64,000 nucleotides of DNA from Fimbriimonadaceae bacterium. GTDB taxonomy: Bacteria > Armatimonadota > Fimbriimonadia > Fimbriimonadales > Fimbriimonadaceae. Shown piece by piece: positions 12,309 to 56,351 of this stretch (position 1 is the stretch's first letter; each line of letters begins with the position of its first letter). The notes below the pieces were generated by a model, which was not told the DNA's origin, ran no database searches, and worked only from the letters and a program-made list of their open reading frames with translations. The position numbers and the translations under genes were made by a program. The stretch is from contig JABAQM010000001.1 of NCBI GenBank assembly GCA_019187105.1, forward strand, positions 2,510,734-2,574,733. Direction: 5' to 3'.

Positions 12309-12653
12309 TGAATTCCTCTTTGCTCCATCATACGATAACGGGTAGTCCGGGGAGTCAAGAGGGATTGGCGACCGGTGGTTGCGAGCCCTCGCAACTTAAG
12401 AAGGGCAAGCCGAGGAAATCTCCGTTCCACCGCAATTTTCAGCTCCGACGGAACTAGGATGCGCATGGATCCGTTCCAAGATTTAAGTCGAATTCGGCGA
12501 TTCACGCCGGAGCGGGGGACCCAGAAATTGGGGTGTATCCAATGGATTGGAGGAGTACTTTCGGCTCTAACCCGGCAGCTAACCTCGCAGACGCATCGAA
12601 AGAGAATGTGACCGCATTCTCCCTGTCCTTATTGCACGGCAAGGAGGAAACCA
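12309..12653. other. Intergenic region, no gene recognised
   Basis: About 345 bases between divergent genes. Short open frames here lack ribosome binding sites and family features. AAGGAGG at 12641-12647 belongs to the next gene. Confidence 0.5.
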
Positions 12654-13070: not shown

Positions 13071-13652
13071 ATGCAGGCCCTGGATCGGGCGATCTTTCGA
13101 TGGATCAACCAGTGGTCCGATTGGCTCGCTCCGATCTTCCGGTTCTTTAGCGAAGGCAACAAGTGGACCTCGGTCCGCATCGCCCTGGCCGCGCTCCTGA
13201 TCTACCTTGTCTGGAGGCCGGCGACCAGGGCGGCGGCCATTCTGGCGATGCTGTCGTGGCCGGTGGCTAACGCCTGCACCGATGTCCTTAAAGCGGCCCT
13301 GCCCACCTACCGGCCGAGCGATCCAAGGTCCGGAATGTCGGATATCGTTTTTAGAGTCGATCCCCTCGACAGCTTTGGGACCGCTTCTGCCCACAGCGCG
13401 AACATGATGGCGGTGGCTGTGGTCTTCCTTCTGCTTGCCCGCCCCTGGGGATGGCCGTGGCTCGCGGTGGCGATCCTTACCGGGCTCTCACGGATCTACG
13501 TTGGCGTTCACTTCCCATTTCAGGTGCTTTTTGGATGGCTGGTTGGCGGCTTCTGCGGCTGGGTTCTCGTGCAATGCTTCCATGCCTGGAAGCGGCTGCG
13601 GGAGGGCCAGGAGGAAGTGGCTGACGATCCCGAGCATTCTGCCGTATGCTAG
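13071..13652 (+). CDS. PAP2-family phosphatase with altered third motif
   Basis: Membrane phosphatase of the type-2 phosphatidic acid phosphatase fold, 193 residues with about five or six helices. Motif 1 is KAALPTYRP near residue 82, motif 2 is TASAHSAN near 108 (SAH where SGH is usual), and motif 3 is SRIYVGVHFPFQVLFGW near 143. The arginine and histidine of motif 3 are kept, but the aspartate normally four residues after the histidine is Gln. The nucleophile system may still work, with a weakened relay. Substrates could be undecaprenyl pyrophosphate or other lipid phosphates. Confidence 0.85.
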   Translation: MQALDRAIFRWINQWSDWLAPIFRFFSEGNKWTSVRIALAALLIYLVWRPATRAAAILAMLSWPVANACTDVLKAALPTYRPSDPRSGMSDIVFRVDPLDSFGTASAHSANMMAVAVVFLLLARPWGWPWLAVAILTGLSRIYVGVHFPFQVLFGWLVGGFCGWVLVQCFHAWKRLREGQEEVADDPEHSAVC

Positions 13653-21588: not shown

Positions 21589-22452
<864 letters not shown>

Positions 22453-22460
22453 TTGCGCCT

Positions 22461-22466
22461 TATAAT
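22461..22466 (+). promoter_or_regulatory. -10 box TATAAT before pseudopilin 2
   Basis: Consensus TATAAT 9 bases after the stop of pseudopilin 1 and 18 bases before ATG 22485. It suggests gene 2 has its own promoter. The leader would be about 11 bases. Confidence 0.55.
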
Positions 22467-22484
22467 GGTCTGGGAAGGAAGTCC

Positions 22485-23342
<858 letters not shown>

Positions 23343-23383
23343 CCAATCGCCAGTTTCTTGGCATCCTGAGCGAATTTCTCGCT

Positions 23384-23389
23384 TATAAT
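23384..23389 (+). promoter_or_regulatory. -10 box TATAAT before pseudopilin 3
   Basis: CGCTTATAATAG lies 30 bases before ATG 23419. The same block, with its downstream leader, recurs before pseudopilin 4. Confidence 0.6.
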
Positions 23390-23418
23390 AGACCTATCCG
23401 TTTCATTTGGAGTCAATA

Positions 23419-24276
23419 ATGGGCCGAACCAAGAGGGCATTTACTCTCATCGAACTTCTTGTCGTCATTGCGATCATTGCCATCTTGGCCGCGATCCTGT
23501 TCCCAGTCTTTGCGCAGGCAAAAGAGTCCGCAAAGATGACCGGTTCTCTGAGCAACATCAAGCAAGCCACGCTCGGTGTTCTCATGTACGCCGGCGACAA
23601 CAACGACAAAATTCCGCGCCACGATAACAATGGCTCGTGCTTCTATCGCGAGAATCCATGCGCGACGCCTGACTGGGGCGACGCGAGGAATGACAGCCGC
23701 GACCCTGAGGCCCGGCCGATGTTTATGAACGTCTGCTACCCCTACATCAAGAACTGGGACATGATGTATTCGGTCAACGTCGGCAAGACGCAGTGGCAGG
23801 CGGCCGTGGGCCGCGGCAACTACAACGGGATTCGATGGGGCGGGGCCTACGACAAGAAGCGTGAGGATGTGTATTACGGCATCCTCGGCTACTGGTCTGT
23901 CAACCTCAACTTGATCGAGTGGGGAGCTCACGGTGCCATCGGAACGGTGGAGCGACCGGGCGAGATCGTGTTGCTGGCCGAATCCGTGTGGGACACCAAC
24001 ATCAGCCCGAGCTACGCGGTTGGCAACACGGCGGTGTGGCCGCATATGCGGAACACCACCTGCGACTCTGGCGATGGCAACGGCTGGACCTGGTACCCCA
24101 ATCGGGCCCAGGGCACCAAGGTCGGCAACGACAATATGGTCACTCGCAAGGGGATGGCGAACATCTCCTACGTGGACGGCCACTCAAAGGTACGCAAATA
24201 CTCTGACTTGGAGCGTTGTGACTTCTTCACCAACGCCAACGTTTGGGCTTATACGTTCTGGGACTATCGATACTGA
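23419..24276 (+). CDS. Pseudopilin-like protein 3
   Basis: The 285-residue paralog with leader MGRTKRA then FTLIELLVV. Nearly identical along its whole length to protein 4 (shared QAAVGRG, FNGIRWGGAYDKKRED or NYNGIRW, NISPSYAVGNTAVWPHM or DISPSY, and KVRKYSDLERCDFFTN), so the two arose by a recent duplication. Cysteines are conserved with the other copies. TTGGAG lies 5 bases before ATG 23419. A hairpin with UUCG loop follows at 24297. Confidence 0.9.
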   Translation: MGRTKRAFTLIELLVVIAIIAILAAILFPVFAQAKESAKMTGSLSNIKQATLGVLMYAGDNNDKIPRHDNNGSCFYRENPCATPDWGDARNDSRDPEARPMFMNVCYPYIKNWDMMYSVNVGKTQWQAAVGRGNYNGIRWGGAYDKKREDVYYGILGYWSVNLNLIEWGAHGAIGTVERPGEIVLLAESVWDTNISPSYAVGNTAVWPHMRNTTCDSGDGNGWTWYPNRAQGTKVGNDNMVTRKGMANISYVDGHSKVRKYSDLERCDFFTNANVWAYTFWDYRY

Positions 24277-24296
24277 TCGAGCGCGTCCCAAGGGCT

Positions 24297-24327
24297 GGCC
24301 TCGGATTTCGATCCGAGGCCATTTCTG
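24297..24327 (+). terminator. Hairpin terminator after pseudopilin 3
   Basis: GGCCTCGGAT and ATCCGAGGCC form a perfect 10-bp stem closed by a TTCG tetraloop, followed by ATTTCTGTTT. It separates genes 3 and 4 into different transcripts. Confidence 0.8.
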
Positions 24328-24428
24328 TTTCGGGACTTGCTGGCCGGGACCCGAGTGTGCCCGCCCGCACCCGGATGGAACCACTCTAAATCCGAGCTAA
24401 ACGTTTCGGTGATGCTCATTTTTTCGCA

Positions 24429-24434
24429 TATAAT
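24429..24434 (+). promoter_or_regulatory. -10 box TATAAT before pseudopilin 4
   Basis: CGCATATAATAG lies 30 bases before TTG 24465. A weak -35 candidate TTCGGT at 24405 is 18 bases upstream. The leader CATCCGTATCATCTGGAG parallels that of gene 3. Confidence 0.6.
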
Positions 24435-24464
24435 AGGACGCATCCGTATCATCTGGAGGCAATC

Positions 24465-25322
24465 TTGCGCCGTAATTCTAGGGCTTTCACCTTAATCGAG
24501 CTACTCGTCGTGATCGCAATCATCGCGATCCTCGCCGCGATCCTCTTCCCGGTCTTTGCACAGGCAAAAGAATCTGCGAAGATGACAGGCTCGCTTAGCA
24601 ACATCAAGCAGGCTTCACTTGGCGTGCTCATGTACGCAGGCGACAACAACGACAAAATTCCGCGCCATGACAATAACGGCTCCTGCTTGTATCGGCAGAA
24701 CCCATGCGCGACGCCTGACTGGGGCGATGCGAGGAACGACAGCCGCGACCCTGAGGCTCGGCCGATGTTTATGAACGTCTGCTATCCCTACATCAAGAAC
24801 TGGGACATGATGTACTCGGTCAACATCGGTAAGACCCAGTGGCAGGCAGCCGTTGGACGCGGCGACTTCAACGGCATTCGATGGGGCGGGGCCTACGACA
24901 AGAAGCGCGAGGATGTGTATTACGGCATCCTCGGAATGTGGGCGGTCAATCTGAACTTGGTTGAGTGGGGCGCCCATGGGGCCATCGGCACTGTGGAGCG
25001 ACCGGGCGAGATCGTGATGCTCGCAGAATCCGTTTGGGACACCGACATCAGCCCGAGCTACGCGGTTGGCAACACGGCAGTGTGGCCGCATATGCGGAAC
25101 ACCTCTTGCGATCCCGGCGATGGCAACGGCTGGACCTGGTACCCCAATCGGGCCCAAGGGACAAAGGTCGGTAACGACAACATGGTCACCCGCAAGGGCC
25201 TGGCGAATGTTGTCTATGTCGATGGCCACTCGAAGGTGCGCAAATACTCTGACTTGGAGCGATGCGACTTCTTTACCAACGCCAACGTATGGGCATATAC
25301 GTTCTGGGATTATCGGTACTAA
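24465..25322 (+). CDS. Pseudopilin-like protein 4, TTG start
   Basis: The 285-residue near-twin of protein 3 with leader MRRNSRA then FTLIELLVV. The start is TTG 24465, with CTGGAG 5 bases upstream. The only ATG-free difference from gene 3 at the start codon suggests weaker translation of this copy. Differences from protein 3 cluster in a few positions (for example GDFNGIRW for GNYNGIRW, GMWAVNLNLVEW for GYWSVNLNLIEW, and LANVVYVDGH for MANISYVDGH). A strong terminator follows. Confidence 0.9.
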   Translation: MRRNSRAFTLIELLVVIAIIAILAAILFPVFAQAKESAKMTGSLSNIKQASLGVLMYAGDNNDKIPRHDNNGSCLYRQNPCATPDWGDARNDSRDPEARPMFMNVCYPYIKNWDMMYSVNIGKTQWQAAVGRGDFNGIRWGGAYDKKREDVYYGILGMWAVNLNLVEWGAHGAIGTVERPGEIVMLAESVWDTDISPSYAVGNTAVWPHMRNTSCDPGDGNGWTWYPNRAQGTKVGNDNMVTRKGLANVVYVDGHSKVRKYSDLERCDFFTNANVWAYTFWDYRY

Positions 25323-53127: not shown

Positions 53128-53222
53128 AAGCATTGGCTCACTTTTCTGGTGAGCGAAAACGGGGGAAGTCCGGCGAAAGTCCGGCACTGTGCCGCAACGG
53201 TTAAAGTCCGAATGCCCGCGAT
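53128..53222 (+). ncRNA. Cobalamin (B12) riboswitch aptamer
   Basis: The conserved core is easy to read: GGGAAGTCCGG, GAAAGTCCGGCACTGTGCCG, then GCAACGGT, and the B12 box AAGTCCGAATGCCCGC at 53205-53220. Upstream, GCTCAC (53136) pairs with GTGAGC (53149), and GCATT at 53130 can pair with AATGC at 53211 to close the aptamer. The ligand is a cobalamin. The expression platform continues to the start codon at 53339. Confidence 0.93.
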
Positions 53223-53285
53223 GCGAATGTCGGTTGGATGGCTCACGAGCATGAGCGGACGCGACACGGGCAGCACCCCGGTTGC

Positions 53286-53330
53286 ACCTCCTTATGCCGT
53301 TGGCATCCTCGTGGACGAAACGACGGAGGT
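53286..53330 (+). promoter_or_regulatory. Predicted ribosome-binding-site sequestration by the riboswitch
   Basis: ACCTCC at 53286-53291 is the exact complement of the ribosome binding site GGAGGT at 53325-53330, 9 bases before ATG 53339. Pairing would block translation when B12 is bound. No T-tract terminator is seen, so control at translation is more likely than attenuation. Confidence 0.55.
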
Positions 53331-53338
53331 CGAACGGA

Positions 53339-54034
53339 ATGAAACAACGGGGCTTTACGCTCCTTGAACTGTTGGTTGTAACGGGCATCGTCGCGGTGCT
53401 CTCGGGAATGCTCTTTCCGGTCTTCGCCAAGGCCAAAGACACTGCAAAGGCAGCAGAGTGCCTGTCGAATGTGCGACAGGTCGGCGTCGCATGGCACCTC
53501 TATGCGAATGACGCGGATGAACGGGCGTGCCTAAGCTACTACTACCTCGATAACTTCTCGCGCGAGATCGCTTGGGATTTCGAGTTGCGTTGGGATGATC
53601 CCGAGCGTCCAGAGACAAAACCGGGGCTGTTGGCGCGCTATGCCCGGGAGGGCCGGTTGCACCGGTGCCCGACCTTTCACGGCGAGCGATGGGGACGCCC
53701 TCATACGGGGATGGCCTACAACGTGTCATTCATCGGCGGAGACGTCCTCTCCGGTCGGAGGGAGGCGGCGGTGGGGTCGATCGGCGACCCCGCCGGCACC
53801 GCGCTATTTGCCGATGCGGGCTTCGGCAATCCGGTGGCGGGACACAACTACCTTCGGTCCCCGAGCGACCCCTTCTTCGGCATTGGAACGGTCCACTTTC
53901 GCCACGGTCGCGGGGCAAACGTCGCCTTCGCCGATGGACACACCAAACGATGGAGTCTGCGCTTTTTCGAGAAGGATAGCGAGCCGGGAACCGGCGCCCT
54001 CAGTGCGGACGATTCCGCCTACGACCTGGAATAA
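53339..54034 (+). CDS. B12-controlled pseudopilin-like protein
   Basis: The 231-residue protein with leader MKQRG and FTLLELLVVTGIVAVLSG helix: cleavage after Gly and Glu at +5 as in type II secretion pseudopilins. The head follows the short DUF1559-like plan, with CLSNVRQVGVAWHLYANDADE near residue 41 (pattern), PGDTALF-type core and the end FRHGRGANVAFADGHTKRW near 190. It is the first gene behind the cobalamin riboswitch; GGAGGT is its ribosome binding site. 12 bases separate it from the DUF4465-like gene. Confidence 0.88.
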   Translation: MKQRGFTLLELLVVTGIVAVLSGMLFPVFAKAKDTAKAAECLSNVRQVGVAWHLYANDADERACLSYYYLDNFSREIAWDFELRWDDPERPETKPGLLARYAREGRLHRCPTFHGERWGRPHTGMAYNVSFIGGDVLSGRREAAVGSIGDPAGTALFADAGFGNPVAGHNYLRSPSDPFFGIGTVHFRHGRGANVAFADGHTKRWSLRFFEKDSEPGTGALSADDSAYDLE

Positions 54035-54045
54035 GGAGATGATTA

Positions 54046-54801
54046 GTGAATAAATTTGTACTTGGCTTTGGCGCAGCTTTGGTAACGGCTGCTGGATATG
54101 GACAGGTTGTCGACTTTGAAGATGTAACGCTTGGTGCGGGGAACTACTACAACGGCAACGACGGCGCCGGCGGCTTCGTCTCCAGAGCGGCCGCTTTCAA
54201 TAACACTTACGATACGAACTGGGACTTTTGGGGCGGCTGGGCGGCTTCGAGGGTCGTCGACACGACCACCGAGGGTTTTGGAAACCAGTACGCATCGTTC
54301 GCCGGCGGTGGTCTTGCAAGCGCGCAATACGGGGTGGCATTCAACTCTTTTCGGGGGGAAGCCGTCGTCGGCCTGCCGGCGGCTCCGGTTGGCCTCTGGC
54401 TGTCCAATACAACGTACGCGGCCCTGTCGATGAGGAACGGGGACGGCTTCGCCAAGAAGTTCGGCGGAACGAGCGGTAATGACCCTGACTGGTTCCGGTT
54501 GACCATCTTCGGCATGGATGGAGCGGGCCAGCAAACCGGAGCGGAGGAGGTCTATCTGGCGGACTTTCGCTTTGCCGACAATGACCTCGACTACATTCTC
54601 GATGAATGGAAATGGGTCGACCTGACCACCTTGGGCAACGCGATCAGGCTGGAATTCCGGCTCGAGTCCAGCGATGTTGGCCAATTCGGCATCAATACTC
54701 CGACCTACTTCTCGATCGACGACATCCACTTGGTTCCGGAGCCAATGACTGTCGTTGCGTTGGGTGTTGGTTTCGCCGCCTGCCTGAGGAGGCGGCGATG
54801 A
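54046..54801 (+). CDS. DUF4465-like PEP-CTERM surface protein, B12 operon
   Basis: The 251-residue exported protein with GTG start after AAGGAG. The signal peptide (NKFVLGFGAALVTAAGYGQ) is followed by VDFEDVTLGAGNYYNG, a G-G-F pattern, and NTYDTNWDFWGGWAASR (N-x-Y-D-x-x-W-x-x-W-x-G-x-A-x-S), close to the DUF4465 family, whose members I recall near B12 uptake genes in Bacteroidota. The C-terminus is a PEP-CTERM tag (VPEPMTVVALGVGFAA and RRRR). A role in binding cobalamin at the surface is inference from the riboswitch. The next gene overlaps as ATGA. Confidence 0.8.
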   Translation: MNKFVLGFGAALVTAAGYGQVVDFEDVTLGAGNYYNGNDGAGGFVSRAAAFNNTYDTNWDFWGGWAASRVVDTTTEGFGNQYASFAGGGLASAQYGVAFNSFRGEAVVGLPAAPVGLWLSNTTYAALSMRNGDGFAKKFGGTSGNDPDWFRLTIFGMDGAGQQTGAEEVYLADFRFADNDLDYILDEWKWVDLTTLGNAIRLEFRLESSDVGQFGINTPTYFSIDDIHLVPEPMTVVALGVGFAACLRRRR

Positions 54802-55502
54802 GGTTTGTCCTCGCGCTTTTGTCTCTTTCCTCGGTGGCTCGGGCTGCCGGTCCTTACGATGCTCACGGGATCCCTGCCAGCAGCCCCAGCTTCAGAGGGT
54901 GGGCGACCGGAGTGGTTCAACTTTCCCGTGGTCCTCAGCGCATCGACGACCCCTTTTCGCCTCCCGCCACCTACGGCGAGGCGAGTTGGGCTCTCGGTGC
55001 GCCCGGAGGCACCTACGACGTCGTCAGCCTCGGCGATGGCGGTTCGGTAACCTTATCATTCGATGGGCTTATCGTCGACAGGCCTGGTCCTGACTTCGCC
55101 GTGTTCGAAAACGGCTTTTGGTCCGGGGTCCGCGTCTTTGCCGAACTGGCGTTTGTCGAAGTGAGCGCCGACGGGCTTAACTTTGTCCGATTTCCGAGCG
55201 TGTCGCTGACTCAGGTCGCGGAACAAGTTCCCGCCTTCGGCACTCTGGAACCGACCGAAATCTATAACCTGGCCGGTAAGCATGGGCAGCTTGAGGGCAC
55301 TCCCTTCGACCTGAAGGAGGCAGGCCTTCGGTCGGCCCGCTACGTGAGGGTCGTCGACGCGGTCGGTTCGCTCCAGTCGGCTTTCCGCCGGCTGGATTCG
55401 CGCGGAATGCCGATCAACGATCCCTGGACCACGCCGTTTTCGACGGGAGGATTCGACCTGGATGCGATTGGCGTGATCCATTCGCTGCGCAAAGGGCCCT
55501 GA
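54798..55502 (+). CDS. Secreted protein of the B12 operon, discoidin-like
   Basis: The 234-residue exported protein (signal peptide MRFVLALLSLSSVARAA). GAPGGTYDVVSLGDGGSVTLSFDG near residue 73 (pattern), PDFAVFENGF near 104, LAFVEVSADGLNFVRFP near 121 and YNLAGKHGQLEGTPFDL near 158 match a group of unnamed cell-surface proteins with a lectin-like beta-sandwich. I recall these also sitting behind B12 riboswitches in other phyla, unverified. ATG overlaps the upstream stop and follows GAGGAGG. It closes the riboswitch operon; no terminator is obvious. Confidence 0.75.
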   Translation: MRFVLALLSLSSVARAAGPYDAHGIPASSPSFRGWATGVVQLSRGPQRIDDPFSPPATYGEASWALGAPGGTYDVVSLGDGGSVTLSFDGLIVDRPGPDFAVFENGFWSGVRVFAELAFVEVSADGLNFVRFPSVSLTQVAEQVPAFGTLEPTEIYNLAGKHGQLEGTPFDLKEAGLRSARYVRVVDAVGSLQSAFRRLDSRGMPINDPWTTPFSTGGFDLDAIGVIHSLRKGP

Positions 55503-55592: not shown

Positions 55593-56351
55593 ATGCGCCG
55601 TGCATTCACCTTGATCGAGCTGCTCGTGGTCATCGCCATCATTGCCATTCTGGCCGCCATTCTTTTCCCCGTCTTCTCCCAGGCAAAGGTTGCCTCAAAG
55701 AAGACTGCATCCGTCTCCAACCTGCGGCAAATCGGGTTCGCGATCATGATGTATGCGGAGGACAATAGTGGCTACCCGCAGCACAGCAGCCCCTCCTGGT
55801 GGAACCCTCGGATCCGATGGACCGATCGGGTTTTTCCGTACGCGAAGTCCGAGGACATCTTCATCGCTCCGAACGCGCCGCTGGACATTTATGGAAAGGT
55901 GTGGGCCCACAACCAGCAGAAGAAGTACGGAGGCTATGGCTTCAACTTCCAGTACCTTGGTAACGCGCGGGAGCTGCTGCCCCTGCTACCCTTCACGGCC
56001 CGCGATACAGATGTCGAAAGGGTTGCCCAGACCGTTGTGGTTGCCGATACACGCGGCGTCCGCCGCGACAACGGCTCAGTCAGTGGCGGCGAGTACGTGA
56101 TCGATCCCCCGTTGCCGAGCGAGCGGGGTAGCGGCAAGACGAGCGGTTACTACGGCGACGGGAGCGAGTGTGGTTCGGGGGCGACCGGCTGTCGATCCAC
56201 GCCCGACGAGCGGCATGCTCGACGGGTCGCCATCGCCTACGCCGACGGCCACGCCGGCACCATGGCGCTGGCCAGAATGGACGACTTCAACGGCGATGGC
56301 CGACCCGATAACGGATGGTGGAACGGGCACGCGGACGCGGAACGAAGGTAG
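55593..56351 (+). CDS. Pseudopilin-like protein 6
   Basis: The 252-residue protein with leader MRRA then FTLIELLVVIAIIAILAAI. The head starts FPVFSQAKVASKKTASVSNLRQIG, then WWNPRIRWTDRVFPYAKSEDIF, and ends with YADGHAGTMALARMDDFNGDGRPDNGWW: the D-G-H motif of DUF1559-like proteins. Distinct from the tandem four in head sequence. It starts 90 bases after the B12 operon; AAAACT ends 7 bases before ATG 55593, so it may have its own promoter instead of being under riboswitch control. Confidence 0.88.
   Translation: MRRAFTLIELLVVIAIIAILAAILFPVFSQAKVASKKTASVSNLRQIGFAIMMYAEDNSGYPQHSSPSWWNPRIRWTDRVFPYAKSEDIFIAPNAPLDIYGKVWAHNQQKKYGGYGFNFQYLGNARELLPLLPFTARDTDVERVAQTVVVADTRGVRRDNGSVSGGEYVIDPPLPSERGSGKTSGYYGDGSECGSGATGCRSTPDERHARRVAIAYADGHAGTMALARMDDFNGDGRPDNGWWNGHADAERR

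Follow-up and report, generated by a model that had tools for sequence, protein, structure and literature searches.

A cobalamin-riboswitch operon joining a prepilin to predicted B12-binding surface proteins: a candidate cobamide-capture module in Armatimonadota

How does B12 enter cells that have no BtuB? The vitamin is larger than ordinary porins can pass, and textbooks have it cross the outer membrane through BtuB, which TonB drives. The question is raised by an operon in a stretch of 64,000 nucleotides (the window) from the genome of a Fimbriimonadaceae bacterium (Armatimonadota; assembly GCA_019187105.1, contig JABAQM010000001.1, positions 2,510,734 to 2,574,733 of the forward strand), in which a class II cobalamin (AdoCbl-II, adenosylcobalamin) riboswitch is followed by genes for a prepilin, a protein of the DUF4465 (BtuJ) family and a secreted discoidin-fold protein, here called P3, in this order and all on the plus strand. 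We consider it probable that these genes form a cobamide-capture module for times of B12 scarcity, with a dedicated pilin acting next to the binding proteins in the absence of BtuB. The capture part of this reading is well supported; the role of the pilin and any import without TonB are what we infer in addition.

The aptamer scores above the curated gathering score of its Rfam family (36.5 bits), an AdoCbl-II aptamer likewise lies upstream of the homologous operons, and searching the 3.3 Mb genome gave no second cobalamin aptamer. A preliminary description of the locus had recognized a clear cobalamin riboswitch at this site but named family RF00174, which reaches only 24.1 bits there and stays under its cut-off; the riboswitch thus stands, and its family changes. 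A six-base complement to the ribosome-binding site is present in the leader of the window operon and extends to seven bases (CGACCTC/GAGGTCG) at loci L005 and L006. The minimum-energy fold of the leader was no better than those of shuffled sequences, with no significant structure, and a search of the leader for terminators found none. Because of the latter result control at the level of translation is likelier, and the riboswitch probably acts by hiding the ribosome-binding site. We infer that B12 lowers expression of the operon.

The second gene of the operon encodes the DUF4465 protein, whose Pfam match spans the whole domain (positions 2-176 of 176) and whose matches in the PDB are 9hmu (E 1e-23), 9fct and 9i2l. 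DUF4465 is a B12-binding family (BtuJ), of which eight distantly related members bind B12 (PMC13398666), and according to crystal structures the tyrosines that touch B12 sit in the DE loop and in the HI loop, the latter with the motif NTPAY (PMC13398666; PMC12751083). Tyrosines are found at both of these positions in the window protein, Y124 (NTTYAALSM) and Y221 (GINTPTYF), and both positions are invariant in four homologues; binding of cobalamin by this protein is therefore likely as judged from its sequence.

For P3, no Pfam match was found, and a search of the PDB with the single sequence returned nothing; BtuG1 was reached by family profiles only. A profile built from 33 P3 sequences had the BtuH domain of BtuG1 as its best PDB match (8blw_B, E 0.005), and a broader profile matched residues 373-472 of the same chain (E 1e-4), with no other match better than E 1.1; the match is remote and covers the N-terminal half of the BtuH domain. 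When the AlphaFold2 model of P3 (pLDDT, the predicted local distance difference test, 92.9) was compared with 350,542 chains by Foldseek, 8blw_B was again the first match (E 2.2e-5, probability 1.00); most of the next ones had discoidin or CBM32-type folds. A BtuH domain has been described as fused into BtuG1 (PMC10404256), and it is by this domain, the C-terminal one of BtuH2, that BtuH binds B12 (PMC8941943). P3 is best seen, from profile and model together, as a remote relative of BtuH, for which B12 binding is plausible. The clades given for DUF4465 do not include Armatimonadota (PMC13398666), and the window operon would extend both the BtuJ and the BtuH kind of protein to this phylum.

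At least 547 relatives of P3 were found in a search of genome contigs, the best of them mostly from Bacteroidota and some from Verrucomicrobiota and Planctomycetota. In the best 80 loci the commonest neighbours of P3 are BtuG-type DUF5074 propellers, BtuB-like TonB receptors and BtuF-like binding proteins. The C-terminal tails of these proteins differ between groups, being of the type IX secretion system (T9SS) kind in Bacteroidota and PEP-CTERM or dockerin-like in Armatimonadota, Verrucomicrobiota and Planctomycetota. The window P3 has lost its PEP-CTERM tail (55480-55502), which its five closest relatives retain, so that of the exosortase anchoring of surface proteins proposed in the preliminary description the part concerning DUF4465 remains. 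The same description had seen no known B12 enzyme or transporter in the operon; indeed no BtuB, BtuG, BtuCDF or other transporter gene is present, but two of the three products turn out to belong with known or likely B12-binding families, and the role in acquiring B12 by surface capture that it had put forward is supported.

Table 1. Features of the window operon, in positions of the window
Feature	Position	Strand	Evidence
AdoCbl-II (class II cobalamin) riboswitch aptamer	53150..53224	+	RF01689 46.3 bits, E 5.4e-8
Probable expression platform	53225..53338	+	ACCTCC (~53285-53290), complementary to GGAGGT of the ribosome-binding site (~53324-53329)
H-X9-DG type prepilin (pseudopilin-like), 231 aa	53339..54034	+	PF07963 1.7e-7
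DUF4465 (BtuJ family) predicted B12-binding protein, 251 aa, with signal peptide and PEP-CTERM tail	54046..54801	+	PF14717 E 1e-49
P3, secreted discoidin-fold protein, remote BtuH-domain relative, 234 aa	54798..55502	+	Profile and Foldseek match to 8blw_B

The prepilin carries an N-terminal cleavage/methylation motif followed by a hydrophobic helix (8-58 in the model) and an H-X9-DG motif at its C-terminus; it scores 31.0 bits with PF07963 and 26.9 bits with TIGR02532, and TIGR04294 falls just beneath its cut-off. No precedent for B12-regulated pilins was found among the papers searched. The three genes are tightly packed, as the preliminary description had it (the start of P3 overlaps the DUF4465 stop codon as ATGA); the pilin as a genuine partner, likewise part of that description, is borne out by comparison within the phylum. 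DUF4465 was present in six of 291 Armatimonadota genomes searched, and in all six, i.e. the window genome and five relatives, the order riboswitch, pilin, DUF4465, P3 is kept; in genome G130 the riboswitch, at 30.7 bits (E 0.0024), falls short of the curated threshold. The window pilin is 56-59% identical to the pilins of the five homologous operons, and the DUF4465 and P3 proteins are about 47-59% identical to those of the relatives. Since the order is conserved in five further genomes, the operon is not a chance assembly.

The remainder of the genome, which is 99.55% complete and for which all genome-wide statements refer to single-family searches, points to a need for this vitamin. The genome encodes the C-terminal half of a split MetH, with B12-binding and activation domains, together with a radical SAM protein of the B12 type and a regulator of the MerR-B12 kind. 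No corrin-ring methylases were found in the genome, and the sole tetrapyrrole-methylase-family protein found lies in an open frame that by eye resembles the rRNA methylase RsmI; the cell is thus seemingly unable to build the corrin ring and would need cobamides from outside. There is one BtuC-like FecCD permease. Just one strong FecCD permease gene is present in the genome, at locus L126 (8082-9074); models of BtuC fit it best, and it has no recognizable BtuD or BtuF genes beside it and no B12 riboswitch. Searches for the TonB plug domain (PF07715) covered 14 whole genomes; no match was found in the window genome, nor is there BtuB in the locus, and none was found in seven of 13 other tested genomes with this type of operon, some of which are drafts of unstated completeness. 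Taken together, the cell seems to need external cobamides while being without the standard outer-membrane door.

Similar loci outside Armatimonadota were collected with P3 proteins of the window's family, searching about 390 Planctomycetota genomes and about 390 of Verrucomicrobiota and retrieving the regions around 40 matches together with eight loci from the contig search; phylum labels for these two groups are those of the named record used as search centre. The sample thus favours loci like that of the window, and the tally speaks only for the stretches fetched, of 5-9 kb per locus (up to 20 kb for genome contigs). A prepilin adjoins P3 in 29 distinct loci of Armatimonadota, Planctomycetota and Verrucomicrobiota, 25 of which have a B12 riboswitch. 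Where DUF4465 and P3 occur together, the pilin is adjacent in 24 of 26 loci, and one of the two without it (L230) has BtuB in the operon instead. Among all 125 distinct loci a pilin is found in 29 and BtuB in 42, and both in none, within the fetched stretches (Fisher's test: 0.003 within these groups, 1e-6 pooled with Bacteroidota, a statistic that ignores kinship). The pilin gene opens the set in Armatimonadota, L049, L108 and L205 and closes it in the other loci; the next gene encodes a BtuF-like binding protein in L209, and in L043 a FecCD permease comes after the pilin. Fusions of DUF4465 with P3 occur in six loci, and also within the giant protein of L049.

When 36 other pilins were added to a tree of the pilins, those from B12 loci clustered far more than under shuffled labels. 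They fall into an Armatimonadota group, a group of most Planctomycetota and Verrucomicrobiota, and three DUF1559-type Planctomycetota pilins placed among other DUF1559 pilins; the background was sampled thinly, and the tree serves as a guide only. One common origin of all B12-locus pilins is unsupported, as the tree cannot be explained by fewer than two gains or losses of the label. The pattern points to repeated recruitment of pilins into B12 operons, and such recruitment would strengthen the case for a functional link.

From these observations the following mechanism can be proposed. With B12 plentiful, the riboswitch would bind it and expression would be lowered; under scarcity the riboswitch would be released and the two exported proteins displayed on the cell surface. 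There, the DUF4465 protein would grip cobalamin by its conserved DE- and HI-loop tyrosines, with P3 as a BtuH-like partner of discoidin fold. As a dedicated subunit of either a type IV pilus or a type II-like pseudopilus, the prepilin would work with these binding proteins, and it might carry or present them, export them, or help to move B12 inward across the outer membrane. The captured cobamide would then pass to the inner-membrane BtuC-type transporter and on to MetH. The mutual exclusion of pilin and BtuB favours a role of the pilin tied to the outer-membrane step, although a difference in export systems could also produce this exclusion, because the tails of P3 differ (T9SS-type versus PEP-CTERM or dockerin-like). 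A bolder version, by which bacteria without BtuB, in three phyla, would take up B12 independently of TonB, with a B12-regulated pilus or pseudopilus moving it, bound to BtuJ- and BtuH-like surface proteins, across the outer membrane, is in our view rather unlikely.

Several results weigh against the proposed capture module with a dedicated pilin. P3 superposes poorly on BtuG1 (TM-score 0.44), and among the 50 Foldseek matches listed for P3 the structure of BtuH2, 7BIZ, is absent. The globular part of the prepilin matches no known B12 binder, in a model of only fair quality (pLDDT 77.5). Pilin lineages differ between phyla, and their exact job may differ as well. The Armatimonadota genomes G130 and G131 carry the operon plus one or two plug-domain proteins, and in 18 loci of the same groups P3 occurs with neither pilin nor BtuB in the fetched stretch.

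The alternative that survives best, unlikely though by no means negligible, is that the pilin is a dedicated secretion helper, a type II-like pseudopilin that exports both binding proteins and itself neither binds nor imports B12, while B12 enters otherwise, for example through a porin. Prepilins of this class resemble GspG and GspH at the N-terminus, the position of the pilin in the operon varies as would be expected of an accessory, and different groups employ different pilin lineages. However, the ordinary PEP-CTERM genes of the phylum mostly do without a pilin: in a control set, one was found within about 1.5 kb at one of 26 other Armatimonadota PEP-CTERM loci, versus six of six B12 operons. 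In addition, export alone does not predict that pilin and BtuB share no locus, although loci with BtuB could use lipoprotein or T9SS export. An attachment operon, by which a B12-starved cell would make a pilus and discoidin-like adhesins to hold on to B12-producing neighbours or particles, is quite improbable. B12 is usually supplied by neighbours, and the pilin does occur together with a discoidin/CBM32-like fold; but DUF4465 is a B12-binding family whose contact residues are retained here, the closest profile and fold match of P3 is a B12-binding domain and not a sugar binder, and genes for BtuF, BtuC, BtuB and BtuG are among the neighbours of such loci.

That the pilin is merely a neighbour by chance in a pilin-rich genome is very improbable. 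With 22-85 prepilin genes per genome, a low density (46 in the window genome, six of them in the window), and with another pilin just downstream of the operon, such an encounter would be unlikely, though not rare; yet the similarity of the pilin in six Armatimonadota genomes, its presence beside DUF4465 and P3 across three phyla and the PEP-CTERM control led us to reject chance for the pilin of the operon. Finally, although B12-independent isoenzymes, for example MetE, are at times under riboswitch control, the suggestion in the preliminary description that the operon might replace a B12-dependent process when B12 is absent is scarcely credible, as none of the three proteins matches an enzyme and two are in B12-binding families.

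The downstream gene just mentioned encodes a second H-X9-DG pilin (55593-56351), 90 bases after P3. It was set aside as a member of the operon, since it is absent behind the operon in the relatives L114 and L115; it is probably a separate gene, likely to be there by chance. Elsewhere in the window (21589-25322), four closely similar prepilin genes stand in tandem, the last two nearly identical; these are recent duplications. Among the relatives of P3 and their neighbours, an unnamed family of surface proteins with the pattern FWIGEGESEVVFIVNW / WGFRW is often found with P3 in B12 loci (29 of 80; e.g. L035 8778-9959, L108 9060-9935, L088 6341-8320); no Pfam domain was found in it apart from a sorting tail, and it is possibly a further B12-handling family. 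Secreted propeller-like proteins adjoin P3 and pilin in loci without DUF4465 (L040 8975-9946; L062 10801-11847; L227 2958-3980), those of L040 and L062 with PEP-CTERM tails, and are possible substitutes for BtuG. P3 also weakly matches the Leptospira LIC_13355 lipoprotein family (E 4e-5, below the cut-off), which may be a BtuH-like B12 protein. A strong c-di-AMP (cyclic di-AMP) riboswitch (RF00379, 73.3 bits) lies at 12476-12609 of the window; downstream of it the first long frame on the plus strand starts at 13071 and by eye looks like a PAP2-type phosphatase.

Known systems resemble the window operon in its parts. BtuJ1 and BtuJ2 of Bacteroides thetaiotaomicron (DUF4465, IPR027828) and D5EK51 of Coraliomargarita akajimensis are of the same Pfam family as the window protein and are likewise secreted, with the same two B12-contact tyrosines (PMC13398666, PMC12751083), and the B. 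thetaiotaomicron BtuJ genes are also riboswitch-controlled; in contrast to BtuJ with its lipid anchor, the window protein has a PEP-CTERM tail, and its operon lacks BtuB, BtuG and BtuCDF. BtuH (the C-terminal domain of BtuH2; the BtuH domain of BtuG1, PDB 8blw), the first match of P3 by profile and by fold, shares with it the genomic setting of surface B12-binding proteins (PMC8941943, PMC10404256), but the relationship is remote, with about 12% identity in the structural alignment, and P3 lacks the PKD domains of BtuH2. The prepilin has the N-terminal methylation motif and long N-terminal helix of H-X9-DG/DUF1559 prepilins (TIGR04294, PF07596) and of type II secretion system pseudopilins, and the C-terminal motif of the former; unlike those, it is predicted to be under the control of a B12 riboswitch and is tied to proteins of B12-binding families, and in Armatimonadota and most other loci such pilins form clades apart from the other sampled pilins. 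For this class of pilins, of which Planctomycetota, Verrucomicrobiota and Armatimonadota have very many, a function is thereby suggested. Pilus-driven import of B12 would in principle have a parallel in the competence pili that take up DNA. The BtuBG, BtuH and BtuJ loci of Bacteroides combine a B12 riboswitch with several surface B12-binding proteins, as does the window; but while those usually centre on BtuB, a TonB-dependent receptor, the window locus has a prepilin, in a genome in which no plug domain was found. With the same set of genes recurring in three phyla at loci without the usual BtuB, another means of capturing B12 is suggested, and perhaps of importing it.
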